This document shows, piece after piece, positions 20,827 through 44,191 of a stretch of DNA of 64,000 nt. The stretch's first letter is position 1. Each line of letters begins with the position of its first letter. A program made the translations under genes and the position numbers. This DNA comes from a virus. The notes beneath the pieces were generated by a model. The model ran no database searches. It had not been told where the DNA came from and saw nothing but the letters and a program-made list of their open reading frames with translations. The stretch is taken from positions 1-64,000 of IMG/VR virus record IMGVR_UViG_3300031221_000001; one strand, given 5' to 3'.

Positions 20827-21273
20827 ATGAAAACAATGATCTTATTTAGATTTGGAGTAATGCCAAATCCTTCAGTATCAGAAATCTTAGCAAATCACAT
20901 GGCAGATAAGGGCTATGTAATGAAAGTTCCAGGAGCAGTAGTTTCGATCTTCCATACAGACAGTGAACTATCACAAATCGATCAAGAACTCAAGAGGCTA
21001 AGTACCAAAGAGGAACCGAGCACTGTTCCTTTAACGTATATGTTGACTGAAATAACCGATCTTCCATACAGCATTGCTTTGCAAGATCAATTGATCAACG
21101 ATTATGTTGGTCAATACACAAACTATAACAGTTATAGCCAGAACTCTACGACGAATCTTCAAGAAAAAATTCAACAATTGCAGAAAAAGCTTGAACAAGC
21201 GATTGCGACAGAGGAGTTTGAAGAGGCTGCTGCGATTAGAGATCTAATCCTAACAGCAAACAATCAGTTATAA
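20827..21273 (+). CDS. hypothetical protein with a C-terminal UVR motif
   Basis: The last 35 residues (LQEKIQQLQKKLEQAI then EFEEAAAIRDLI) match the UVR motif of UvrB, UvrC and ClpC-like proteins, an antiparallel helical hairpin for protein-protein contact. The first 100 residues resemble no known domain. The length is 148 aa from the ATG at 20827. UVR-motif small proteins (for example McsA) act as adaptors. It is coupled by overlap to the deacetylase gene. Confidence 0.65.
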   Translation: MKTMILFRFGVMPNPSVSEILANHMADKGYVMKVPGAVVSIFHTDSELSQIDQELKRLSTKEEPSTVPLTYMLTEITDLPYSIALQDQLINDYVGQYTNYNSYSQNSTTNLQEKIQQLQKKLEQAIATEEFEEAAAIRDLILTANNQL

Positions 21274-22247
21274 TGAGAGAGTCAGTAACAATACACTACA
21301 CAGAAAAACAGGTATGTACTGAGCAGATCAAAGAGGAGAGCTATTCAATGTCTCCTCTTAAACCTGCACTATACATAGAAGCAATTAAGACTCATTTAAC
21401 AAAGTATCCTAATCTAGTACGGTGGAATACGCAAATCAAGCCATTTAGAAGAAGAGATTTCTTCAATGCACACACTCCTAAGTACGTTGAGAACTTCTTC
21501 GATGGAGTCAATAATTGCACTAGTAACGGAATTCCTTGGAGCAAAGAGCTTGCACGATCAGTGAGATACACCAATAGTAGCTTATATACAGCGATTAATG
21601 CAAGCGTTCATCAACCAAACGACATACACGTTAGTCCTACAAGCGGATTTCATCATGCAAGACCTGAAGGAGGTTCTGGATTCTGTACATTTAGTGGTCA
21701 GGTGATAGCTAGTTTAAAGCTATATCGCAAACACAAACTTAAAGGAGCTTACTTAGATTTAGACGGACATCATGGAAACAGTATAGAAGATAGTCGTTGG
21801 TACGTTGAAGATAGATACGGAATCGACTTAGATGAGGTGATTCCTATGAACATCAATCCAAAAGGGTGTGGAGAAACTTATTTGTGTGACTTACAAAGAA
21901 ACTTATTCTGGTTGGAGGACAAAATCATCAAAGGAGAGGTGGATTATGTTGTGTGGTGTCATGGAGCAGATAGTCATCAAGACGACGATCTAGGACATCA
22001 ACTTAGCACAAAACAATGGATTGAGGCAAGTACAAGATTCTATCAATGGCTCAATGATCTAGAAAAAAGACTAGGTAGAAAGATTCCTTTAACACTATCG
22101 CTGTTTGGAGGATATAGAAAAGACGACTATGATAGCGTAATTAACTTACATTTGACAGACCTCATAGTGGGAATTAATCATCTTACCAATAAGACAATTT
22201 CAACGAAACGGTTTAAGGTAAACGCAAAAGTGGCAACGTATGTCTAA
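21273..22247 (+). CDS. HDAC-family (arginase/deacetylase fold) enzyme
   Basis: The histone-deacetylase catalytic signature is complete. SGFHHARPEGGSGFC (about 124-138) carries the charge-relay histidines H127/H128. YLDLDGHHGNS (160-170) carries the zinc ligands D164 and H166, and HGADSHQDDDLG (230-241) carries the third ligand D233. The length of 324 aa is typical of bacterial class II and acetylpolyamine amidohydrolase-like members. It should remove acetyl or similar acyl groups from lysine, polyamines or small molecules. A phage copy is unusual. It is expressed from P6 and coupled to the UVR-motif protein. Confidence 0.85.
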   Translation: MRESVTIHYTEKQVCTEQIKEESYSMSPLKPALYIEAIKTHLTKYPNLVRWNTQIKPFRRRDFFNAHTPKYVENFFDGVNNCTSNGIPWSKELARSVRYTNSSLYTAINASVHQPNDIHVSPTSGFHHARPEGGSGFCTFSGQVIASLKLYRKHKLKGAYLDLDGHHGNSIEDSRWYVEDRYGIDLDEVIPMNINPKGCGETYLCDLQRNLFWLEDKIIKGEVDYVVWCHGADSHQDDDLGHQLSTKQWIEASTRFYQWLNDLEKRLGRKIPLTLSLFGGYRKDDYDSVINLHLTDLIVGINHLTNKTISTKRFKVNAKVATYV

Positions 22248-26032: not shown

Positions 26033-26102
26033 CAATTGTTAGTAACAGGATCAGTACCGTTGTGAAGAGAGGTCTCATCACCTAGTACAACACTAACAAT
26101 TG
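26033..26102 (+). ncRNA. long hairpin directly upstream of the tmRNA
   Basis: CAATTGTTAGT (26033-26043) pairs perfectly with ACTAACAATTG (26092-26102). Inner helices are GTAC/GTAC (26054-26057 with 26085-26088), GTGA/TCAC (26062-26065 with 26078-26081) and GAG/CTC around an AGGT loop. The stem ends two bases before the first base of the tmRNA, so it could guide processing of the tmRNA 5' end or be a separate small RNA. Confidence 0.6.
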
Positions 26103-26104
26103 AT

Positions 26105-26454
26105 GGGGGCGACTGGTTTTGACTGGTACGTAGTAAATAATGTTCAGCCGTTGTAGTCAACGTAAAAACGTGGTGAATTTCTTTAAATGGAAACACAGAT
26201 ATGACAGCAGGAGAGACTGCACAAGTAGAAGCTAATATGAACGTAGTACACAATCTCGTGAATAACAGTAACGAAATTGCCGAATACAAATTAGCAGCAT
26301 AAAAGTACTCTGAGTGTAACTAGCTCAGATGGTGGATTGTTGGAAGACTCGTCTTTCGACCCTATTGTGACGACAATTCAAACACGTAGCAAGCTGTGCT
26401 AAAAACATTATTTATAAAATGCTTGGGACGGGAGTTCGAATCTCCCCGCCTCCA
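26105..26454 (+). ncRNA. ssrA: transfer-messenger RNA (tmRNA)
   Basis: The 5' end GGGGGCGACTGGTTTTGAC is the standard tmRNA start. GGGGGCG (26105-26111) pairs with CGCCTCC (26447-26453), and the T-arm is GGGAG-TTCGAAT-CTCCC (26430-26446). The discriminator A is at 26454 and CCA is not encoded. The tag frame most likely begins at GGA 26210 and ends at TAA 26300-26302. It gives 30 residues that start GETAQVEANM and end NEIAEYKLAA. As I recall them, host Bacteroidota tags are much shorter (GENNYALAA type). It would rescue stalled ribosomes and tag the products for proteolysis. Confidence 0.92.
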
Positions 26455-26805: not shown

Positions 26806-26878
26806 TGTCCTGTGGTGTAATTGGTAACTCTTCTGGTTTTGGTCCAGAAGAGTCTAGGTTCGAGCCCTAGTAGGATAA
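26806..26878 (+). tRNA. tRNA-Gln (anticodon UUG)
   Basis: The acceptor stem is TGTCCTG/TAGGATA with two wobbles, and the D-arm GTGTAATTGGTAAC is of Bacteroidota tRNA-Gln type. The anticodon stem TCTGG/CCAGA holds the loop TTTTGGT (anticodon TTG), and the T-arm is CTAGG-TTCGAGC-CCTAG. It is 73 bases long and CCA is not encoded. The anticodon stem can extend to nine pairs (CTCTTCTGG/CCAGAAGAG). CAA is heavily used in the phage genes. Confidence 0.9.
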
Positions 26879-26949
26879 CAAATAACAAATCATAGTAGAT
26901 GGGTGGTAATTTTTTAGGATATTTACATCCATATCAAATTATTATTATT

Positions 26950-27333
26950 ATGGAAGCTATCAAAAAAGACGTTAGAGGAGAACATAGTGCAAATATAGGC
27001 CTACTAACAGAATATCAAATCAACTTATCAGTTGCTGAAGGATATCCAGGAGGGGCTCTTGTAGCAGATTTATTAGGATACAGACTAGCTTCAGTTACTG
27101 TATCAGGCACAGGAGCTTCAGGAACCTCTGGAACTGCTGCGATTAAACAATCAAATGAAATCAGCGGAACCCTTTTCGATCTAGCAGCACCGAAGTCAGT
27201 AGACTTTAGTGCTAACGGAACTGACGGAGCTTTCGATATTGAAGTTAGTGGTCAGTACTTAATCATTGACGCATCATCAATTGTATTTGGACAAGTAGGA
27301 AAGTTGACAGTACGAATCGTAGGCAAAAGATAA
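26950..27333 (+). CDS. putative virion surface or fibre-associated protein, 127 aa
   Basis: A Gly/Ser/Ala/Thr-rich beta protein (VSGTGASGTSGTAAIKQSN, FDIEVSGQYLIIDASS). The start ATG at 26950 is preferred to 26899. It lies directly upstream of the collagen-repeat tail fibre, separated by two bases, so it is probably a small structural or decoration protein. No family was recognised. Confidence 0.5.
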   Translation: MEAIKKDVRGEHSANIGLLTEYQINLSVAEGYPGGALVADLLGYRLASVTVSGTGASGTSGTAAIKQSNEISGTLFDLAAPKSVDFSANGTDGAFDIEVSGQYLIIDASSIVFGQVGKLTVRIVGKR

Positions 27334-42622: not shown

Positions 42623-44191
42623 ATGAACAGTCAATTTAACACAGTCCTTTCAATCGAATTAATCAAGGCTAAGTCTAGTGGCGGCAAGTCTGTGATGAAG
42701 ATGAAAGGAATTGCATCCACTCCCTCATTAGATAGTGACGGAGAGTACTTAGATCCGAAAGGGTTCGAAGTTGAATACTTTTTGAAGTACGGATTTATGA
42801 ATTGGAATCATCAAACCAACAGTGATCCTTTATCTGTAGTAGGAAAGCCTTTATCAGCAAAGGTGAATCGAAATGGAGATTTTGAAATAGAGTTTGAGCT
42901 GTTTGAGAAGAGCGCAAAAGCTATTCAAATTTACGAGCTACAAAAGATTCTTGAAAATCAAGGAATGTCTCTAGGACTATCAATTGAAGGTAAGGTAATA
43001 GAGAGAAATCCAAAAGACAACAGGATAGTAACTAAGGCTCAAATAACAGCATGTGCAATAACTCCTAACCCAAAGAACCAAGATACAGTCACTTCGATCA
43101 TAAAAGGTCAAGGATTTAACAAACTTTCTGCATACGACGAAATGTCAGAGGAGGAAAGAGAAAAGGCATTGATGGCCGGAAGTAGTAGTGGATCTGCACT
43201 GTCTAAGGAATCTCTCAATGGGAGTGTTAAAGAAATTGAGAAAAAAACTTTTAGTAAAGCCAAGTTCTTTGATAAAGTTTTCAGAAAGTTACCCTCGATT
43301 TCTATAAGAGGTGCACAAAAGATGTACGAATTAACTTACAAAATTGAAAAATCATTAATTATGTCAGAAGAGAATAAACAAAAAGAAGGGTTCGTGTCTG
43401 AAGAGGCTATTCAGAAAGCACTTGAAATATTAGAGCTCCAAGAACCTGAGGCGAAACAAACGCCAGAAGGAACTGAAATGCCAGCAGCACAACAATCGCA
43501 AGAGTCTGCTGACCAAGAAGAAGAGGTTTCTGTTAAAGAGTCTAAACAAGAACACGCTCAATCTTCAGCTACTGAAGAAGAAGAGACTGAAGAAGAAGAG
43601 ACTGAAGAAGAAGATGTAGATCATAGAGACGCTGCTTTAGTAAAGGCAAGATTGACAATTGAAGAATTGTCAAAAGCGCTAGAAGTAAAGACGCCGTCAA
43701 AGAAAGATCCAGAGCCAGAGATTCAAAAGTCAATTGAAACAGAAACTCCTACACAGTCAGACAACGTATTGTTGAAAGGAATTGGTGAACTTCTAAAAGG
43801 TGAAATTAGTGGATTCAAGTCAGAAATTGATAAGAAGTTTCAAGCAGTTGGAACATTGACTAAGTCGATGACAGACCAAAACGCTGAACTTTTTAAAAGA
43901 ATCACTAACCTAGAGAAAGAGCCTCAGGGAAGAAAAAGCATAACCACACAATCGTATGTGGAAAAAAGCTTTGGAGACGGTGACATAAAAAAAGGAGCAC
44001 AAGAAGATCAGTTAAGCATCTCTCGACACAAAAGACAAATTTGTGATTTATTGACTAAGTCAATTACAGGAGATGAAGGAATTACTGATCAGAGAACTGC
44101 TAGTGAGATCATGGCTTTTGAACAAGCAGGTCACGTAAGTAAGGGCTTAATTCAAAAAGCAAAAGATTTAGGGTACGCACTAACCAAATAA
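42623..44191 (+). CDS. prohead protease fused to a scaffold-like region
   Basis: Residues 1-150 match phage prohead serine proteases: MKGIASTPSLDSDGEYL, catalytic His63 in NWNHQTNSDP and Ser120 in MSLGLSIEGKV. Residues 230-520 are long, acidic and coiled (EEEETEEEETEEED), typical of a scaffolding domain removed during maturation. Such protease-scaffold fusions let the protease ride into the procapsid and cleave itself free. It is followed by the major capsid gene. Confidence 0.85.
   Translation: MNSQFNTVLSIELIKAKSSGGKSVMKMKGIASTPSLDSDGEYLDPKGFEVEYFLKYGFMNWNHQTNSDPLSVVGKPLSAKVNRNGDFEIEFELFEKSAKAIQIYELQKILENQGMSLGLSIEGKVIERNPKDNRIVTKAQITACAITPNPKNQDTVTSIIKGQGFNKLSAYDEMSEEEREKALMAGSSSGSALSKESLNGSVKEIEKKTFSKAKFFDKVFRKLPSISIRGAQKMYELTYKIEKSLIMSEENKQKEGFVSEEAIQKALEILELQEPEAKQTPEGTEMPAAQQSQESADQEEEVSVKESKQEHAQSSATEEEETEEEETEEEDVDHRDAALVKARLTIEELSKALEVKTPSKKDPEPEIQKSIETETPTQSDNVLLKGIGELLKGEISGFKSEIDKKFQAVGTLTKSMTDQNAELFKRITNLEKEPQGRKSITTQSYVEKSFGDGDIKKGAQEDQLSISRHKRQICDLLTKSITGDEGITDQRTASEIMAFEQAGHVSKGLIQKAKDLGYALTK

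Follow-up and report, generated by a model that had tools for sequence, protein, structure and literature searches.

The window analyzed here, a 64,000-nucleotide stretch of DNA from a virus that infects Bacteroidota (positions 1 to 64,000 of the IMG/VR virus record IMGVR_UViG_3300031221_000001), encodes a tmRNA whose predicted tag is about four times the length of bacterial tags (37 codons versus 9-10 in hosts). The same tag frame and motif were found in 125 viral contigs, and the frame carries the signature of purifying selection, indicating that the conservation of the tag exceeds chance. The novelty of this RNA lies in a predicted core, specific to phages, that separates the resume codon from the degron.

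ARAGORN placed a one-piece tmRNA gene at 26105-26455/57 on the + strand, and the Rfam model RF00023 matched it over its full length (positions 1-374; 71 bits, cut-off 47, E 1.3e-25). The gene spans 26105-26454 (+), from its first base to the discriminator A; CCA is not encoded and ACAA follows. No other tmRNA was found in the 95,137-bp virus record. The 5' strand of the acceptor stem (GGGGGCG, 26105-26111) pairs with CGCCTCC (26447-26453) at 7/7 positions, supported by covariation in 36 relatives, and its third pair is G3·U70, an alanine identity element present in the window and in 35/35 aligned relatives. The T-arm (GGGAG-TTCGAAT-CTCCC, 26430-26446) has a stem of 5/5 pairs and was indicated by ARAGORN, Rfam, pairing, and covariation. 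The 5' strand of P2 lies at 26135-26148, with partners at 26393-26396 and 26404-26413 and with changes on both sides at most pairs of the RNAalifold consensus. This consensus, computed from 36 diverse members, recovered the acceptor stem, the T-stem, and P2, with many pairs changed on both sides. Where PK1 would be expected, 5' of the resume codon, the window has the hairpin CGTTG-tagt-CAACG (26149-26162; consensus pairs 46-48/57-59); the hairpin alone was seen in the consensus, and other members have CAG-agagataa-CTG there. A simple pairing search found both the acceptor stem and the T-arm in 71 of the 82 distinct members with enough downstream sequence, and in some of the other 11 (L044, L081, and L118) a group I intron lies close to the T-loop. 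The tRNA-like domain, the G-U alanine identity, P2, and a resume codon with a tag frame, all features of one-piece tmRNAs (RF00023), were thus present, which supports the prediction that the window RNA folds as a one-piece alanine tmRNA. The initial annotation had called a tmRNA from its tRNA-like ends and 5' signature, with its end at 26454, and had proposed scoring by a covariance model; the call and the end were borne out by the 71-bit score above the cut-off of 47, the 7/7 acceptor pairs, P2, and the T-arm.

Group I introns (RF00028) were located within or just 3' of family tmRNAs at 785-1010 in L044, 3998-4221 in L081, and 1524-1739 in L118; the T-loop is interrupted by such an intron in L044 and apparently also in L021.

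A pattern for short tags starting with Gly, run on GTDB genomes, yielded 119 Bacteroidota host tmRNAs, which were therefore chosen by their tag. In these, the resume codon GGC directly followed a UUUAAAY-like sequence (U at -5 in 117, A at -4 in 118), and the tags had 9 codons (e.g., GENNYALAA); in 30 genomes picked by RNA family alone, host tags had 9-10 residues, with one doubtful ARAGORN call. The window has TTTAAAT at 26182-26188 (+) immediately 5' of a GGA codon (TTTAAAT-GGA, 26182-26191), a context shared with the 119 hosts and 85 distinct phage tags. Among these 85 relatives, positions -5 to -2 were U-A-A-A with few exceptions, base -5 having been left free in the patterns used on viral contigs, and the codon was GGC (50) or GGA (35). 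The site lies 84 nt into the gene, as compared with 82-90 nt in nearly all relatives. Because the context is host-like and the frame is the same, translation most likely resumes at GGA 26189, as judged by this comparison, giving a predicted 37-codon tag, GNTDMTAGETAQVEANMNVVHNLVNNSNEIAEYKLAA, that opens with GNTDMTAGETAQ. The tag reading frame (26189-26302, +; profile match E 8.9e-12) runs from GGA 26189-26191 to the stop TAA at 26300-26302.

The initial annotation had started the tag at GGA-GAG 26210, 7 codons downstream in the same frame. The 30-codon frame that it described (26210-26302, ending in YKLAA and then TAA) is indeed open, and its comparison with host tags of Bacteroidota was sound (9-10 codons, GENNYALAA and similar), as was its view of an unusually long tag with the LAA end retained (37 codons, LAA at 26291-26299). 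Its estimate of about 20 extra residues has to be raised to nearer 28, which hold a motif conserved across unrelated phages. Resumption at 26210 would give 30 residues opening with GE, as host tags do, and the codons are in frame; however, relatives have CAG-GAA or other codons at this place, the UUUAAAY context lies 21 nt upstream, and in 115/115 relatives the frame counted from the GGN further upstream is intact, the spacing being in whole codons, making this start very improbable. The same annotation had named a resume codon near the end of the frame as the outcome that would overturn it, and alignment with hosts moved the start 7 codons upstream instead. A late start at GCC 26279, giving the normal-length AEYKLAA that ARAGORN itself reported, has a negligible chance of being correct, since it lies 175 nt into the gene rather than 84, its context is not conserved, and ARAGORN also chose arbitrary points within the same long frame in phi14:2 and L031; AEYKLAA is a truncated call.

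The first relatives came from known phages, the Cellulophaga phages Calle_1/phi38:1/phi40:1 and the crAss-like phi14:2, whose tags have the same internal motif as the window, and a search with a tag-derived pattern gave further ones; a strict pattern of the 5' signature plus GCTAATATG retrieved known isolates only. To avoid circularity, IMG/VR was searched with a tag-blind pattern that drew solely on RNA 5' of the tag (GAGAYAACT...CNWAGGTGA...AAAYGG), which matched 116 stretches. A tag with NM in one frame, set by the GGN codon, was present in 115 of 120 copies (all loci read, including some duplicates of one phage), with a GGN-to-ANM spacing of 4-16 whole codons in the 115. In L108, the contig ends before the tag stop. 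Three distinct members of the RNA family lack ANM (L055, L079/L126, and L123) and have long tags in the same frame; the L123 tag (GKNVQIASAKVIALGG...) resembles a degenerate core. Relaxing the pattern brought in members whose hairpins differ, some unlike GAGAYAACT, as in the window, which lacks the upstream GAGAYAACT and CNWAGGTGA and has CGTTG-tagt-CAACG and CGTGGTGA; L312, L316, and L322 also have other upstream hairpins within the family. GAGAYAACT/CNWAGGTGA is therefore a search pattern for one subset and does not define the family, to which the window belongs by its Q[IV]xANMxxV core in the GGN frame. The 125 motif-bearing contigs carry 82 distinct tags of 24-50 codons.

By tblastn, 29 records of Flavobacterium psychrophilum phages had the family tag, with no feature annotated there; Rfam confirmed the tmRNA in FpV4 and Fpv2, and the FpV4 tag is GNTNNSVVSLEDNAQVEANMNMAFSLIREDVAVAA. 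With the window tag alone as the query, tblastn gave no match in phages; matches required a query typical of the family. In Calle_1, the tmRNA as annotated in the deposited record (L006 1553-1912; MT732432.1 43002-43361) starts ~52 nt past the RF00023 match (42950-43311) and misses the true ends. ARAGORN shortens or misses many tags of the family and most deposited genomes examined leave the gene unannotated, so that the family is easily overlooked.

The conserved core of the window tag, QVEANMNVVHNLV, lies at 26222-26260 (+) by comparison with relatives, and the family motif is Q[IV]xANMxxV[HF]x[IL][IL], usually with an AA end. Across the 76 distinct sequences tallied, the residues Q(-3), A, N, M, and V(+5) were invariant at codon bases 1-2 and varied at the third base, with all four codons used for Ala, both for Asn, and all four for Val; this tally took in only tags with NM, and the invariant positions were partly required by the tag-derived pattern and not by the tag-blind RNA pattern, the source of most sequences. 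The 13-codon core had a pS of 0.69 and a pN of 0.26 in frame, with pS/pN of 0.44/0.34 and 0.29/0.36 in the other two frames; these counts ignore relatedness, and the contrast between frames rests on the same sequences. That the conservation belongs to the RNA and not to the peptide, as a structural or frame-setting tmRNA element, could be argued from the strong bias of some codons (GCT for Ala, one Met codon) and from the part that bases close to the resume codon play in setting the tmRNA reading frame (PMC2481249). Invariant residues with varying third bases, pS/pN ratios that are opposite in another frame, indels in multiples of three, and a tag region in which RNAalifold found no consensus pairs among 36 diverse members make this explanation extremely improbable. 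The data support the interpretation that selection preserves the 37-residue peptide read from GGA 26189.

The predicted degron-like C-terminal LAA lies at 26291-26299 (+), and the AA is kept in 73-75/76 distinct relatives. This end is not universal: Calle/phi38:1 end in VGV (the predicted phi38:1 tag ends ...AQIEANMEAVNAILNLEVAVGV), and phi14:2, L027, and also L316 end in MVA. AlphaFold2 on the tag alignment predicted a helix with high local confidence over residues 11-20 (pLDDT 88) and low overall confidence (pTM 0.36), which is consistent with the core being a helix and with nothing further.

The tag appears to be confined to phages among the genomes searched. A strict tag pattern, covering the VVHN type only, had no match in genome contigs of 84,980 species. 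The resume context plus ANM was matched in 7 genomes out of about 790 from Bacteroidota (395 + 399, partly overlapping); none of the 7 was a tmRNA, and a backward control pattern matched at a similar rate. A profile of the tag had no match in 60 Flavobacteriaceae genomes; as a positive control, it found 9/9 motif-bearing phage records and not the three lacking ANM. The motif was not matched in plasmids, and the host pattern detected host-type short tags in only 15 IMG/VR stretches. The window differs from an ordinary Bacteroidota host tmRNA in its 37 codons and its conserved core. Such host tmRNAs (RF00023; GENNYALAA, GETNYALAA) are likewise one-piece and share the alanine identity, P2, UUUAAAY-GGN, and the AA end, whereas the host tags lack the core and are 9-10 residues long, and the sequence of the host upstream hairpin is different.

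The window phage encodes a tail sheath protein, RIIA/RIIB, and a major head protein of phrog_752, and is contractile-tailed by gene content. In the filed taxonomy, phi14:2 belongs to Crassvirales Steigviridae, Calle and phi38:1 to Pervagoviridae, and FpV4 to Fipvunavirus. Kinship of the phages was considered as the cause of the shared tag and rejected, as the major capsid protein of the window had no relative in 42 other records carrying the family; comparison of ORFs likewise detected no proteins shared by the window phage and Calle (E 1e-3). The tmRNA so appears to move between, or to have persisted in, lineages with little else in common. A phage-encoded partner of the motif shared by all lineages was sought among the ORFs of four carriers (the window phage, phi14:2, Calle, and FpV4), and no protein was common to them (phmmer, E 1e-3). 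The partner is therefore probably a host factor, with the reservation that a small, diverged partner encoded by the phages may escape phmmer. No second copy of the motif, as possible mimicry, was found in other ORFs of the four phages, and Pfam identified no SmpB, Clp, or Lon among ten window proteins.

Around the gene, the stretches 26033-26102 and 26635-26753 fold better than shuffled sequences (z -2.9 and -2.7), and the first is closed by an 11-bp inverted repeat; Rfam had no match in either, and they are possibly further small RNAs. A tRNA-Gln (TTG) follows the tmRNA at 26806-26878, and the Cellulophaga phages phi4:1 and phi17:2 have a similar stretch in their tRNA cluster. A protein search found no relatives of the neighboring gene at 26899-27333, and no match to a Bacteroidota-type promoter consensus was found near the tmRNA gene. 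The window also encodes a protein with a histone-deacetylase domain (21273-22247; PF00850, E 1e-20). Other forms of phage tmRNA were encountered as well. In an uncultured 484-kb phage (LR756508.1; L008 1419-1530), a 112-nt RF00023 match of 58 bits leaves no room for a tag; it seems to consist of the tRNA-like domain alone, as in mycobacteriophage DS6A, a type reported to inhibit host tmRNA (PMC4131195, PMC11915505). The Bacteroidota phage Maribacter phage Panino (PP540027.1; L007 1474-1682) has a permuted tmRNA (RF04321, 62 bits), and the tag printed for it by ARAGORN lacks the long-tag motif.

Long or composite tags are known from bacteria. The Mesoplasma florum tmRNA tag is long (about 27 residues) and is read by Lon, with recognition determinants inside; compared by description, it resembles the phage tag in its length and internal determinants and differs in being bacterial and in how it ends, and to our knowledge it does not share the phage motif. 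The use of mf-Lon has been described (PMC8138137). The E. coli ssrA tag is two-part, with an SspB site upstream of the ClpX site (PMC8138137); its adaptor-binding segment upstream of a ClpX-binding end is similar in arrangement to the putative docking segment of the phage tag, whereas it has 11 residues of other sequence and SspB is reported from certain proteobacteria only. Considering the two-part E. coli tag and the long Lon-read Mesoplasma tag, an added docking site is by analogy the most economical reading of the phage core. Phage-borne tmRNAs are also known from mycobacteriophage Bxz1, phage G, and the OM43 phage Melnitz, the last of which is two-piece, unlike that of the window; the portions of PMC4131195 and PMC9004378 available report no conserved long tag in them. 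A tmRNA database of 97,179 sequences gives 10 residues as the commonest tag length (PMC11915505), and one tmRNA was counted in Calle (PMC8776804). In the open literature, in mostly open-access text that included parts of PMC11915505, PMC4131195, PMC9004378, PMC8776804, PMC12656738, and PMC7162821, we found no account of a long tag conserved among phages, and one may exist elsewhere. Relative to this literature, mainly open papers, the long-tag phage tmRNA family appears to be new, the tmRNA itself being of a known kind.

In trans-translation, Ala-tmRNA and SmpB enter a stalled ribosome, the tag frame is read, and ClpXP degrades the product (PMC8138137 and PMC4131195); we assumed that these established steps apply to the phage tmRNA, for which extra rescue or a redirection of tagged proteins, as the initial annotation proposed, would be plausible. 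The reading we favor, and consider fairly probable, is that of a functional-looking tmRNA, from a family found in unrelated phages of Bacteroidota, whose tag combines a docking motif with a degron and acts via a host factor. Ribosomes that stall during infection on cut or truncated mRNAs would be rescued with host SmpB, and the nascent protein would receive a two-part tag consisting of a helical docking motif (QxxANMxxVxx[IL][IL]), a variable linker, and a C-terminal AA degron. The docking motif would bind a host factor conserved across Bacteroidota, the first candidates being a factor associated with the ribosome and an unfoldase or adaptor of a protease; proteins bearing the phage tag would be processed more quickly than those with the host tag, or in a different way, and the AA end would still pass them to ClpXP. 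The strictly kept residues argue against mere length as the point of the tag. More tentatively, with a chance slightly short of even, the conserved helix may be an independent element that captures or inhibits a host factor and reprograms the fate of rescued proteins beyond added rescue; a protease adaptor, a ribosome-associated factor, or a defence protein may be the factor concerned.

Two other explanations of the tag were weighed. The core might have no docking partner and instead target the host ribosome directly, as an arrest peptide or one acting in the tunnel; the ribosome is a universal host partner and would fit carriers without a shared protein. The length of the phage tag is close to that of the ribosome exit tunnel, a similarity that would suit such a role. 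However, the distance from ANM to the C terminus varies from 18 to 34 codons, suggesting that the core is not set to act at termination, and we regard this explanation as unlikely. A relic or decoy that only competes for SmpB and leaves the tag unused, like the tag-less DS6A form, would agree with the phage forms reduced to a tRNA-like domain that inhibit host tmRNA (PMC4131195 and PMC11915505); it is highly unlikely here, given a tag frame that is open and under purifying selection across lineages.

For why phages carry tmRNA, a survey of phage tmRNAs offers only possibilities, such as upkeep of the hijacked machinery and recycling of host proteins (PMC9004378). A phage-only tag segment that selection has maintained in phages with hardly any proteins in common should have an effect that host tags lack, and through it this question becomes testable. 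Cultured hosts and phages exist (Cellulophaga phi38:1, phi14:2, and Calle; Flavobacterium FpV4), leaving a specific and testable puzzle, namely what the conserved core binds. On the present sequence comparisons, proteins rescued during infection appear to be given a signal that is the phage's own; if this is true, trans-translation would serve Bacteroidota phages as a means of adding such a peptide.
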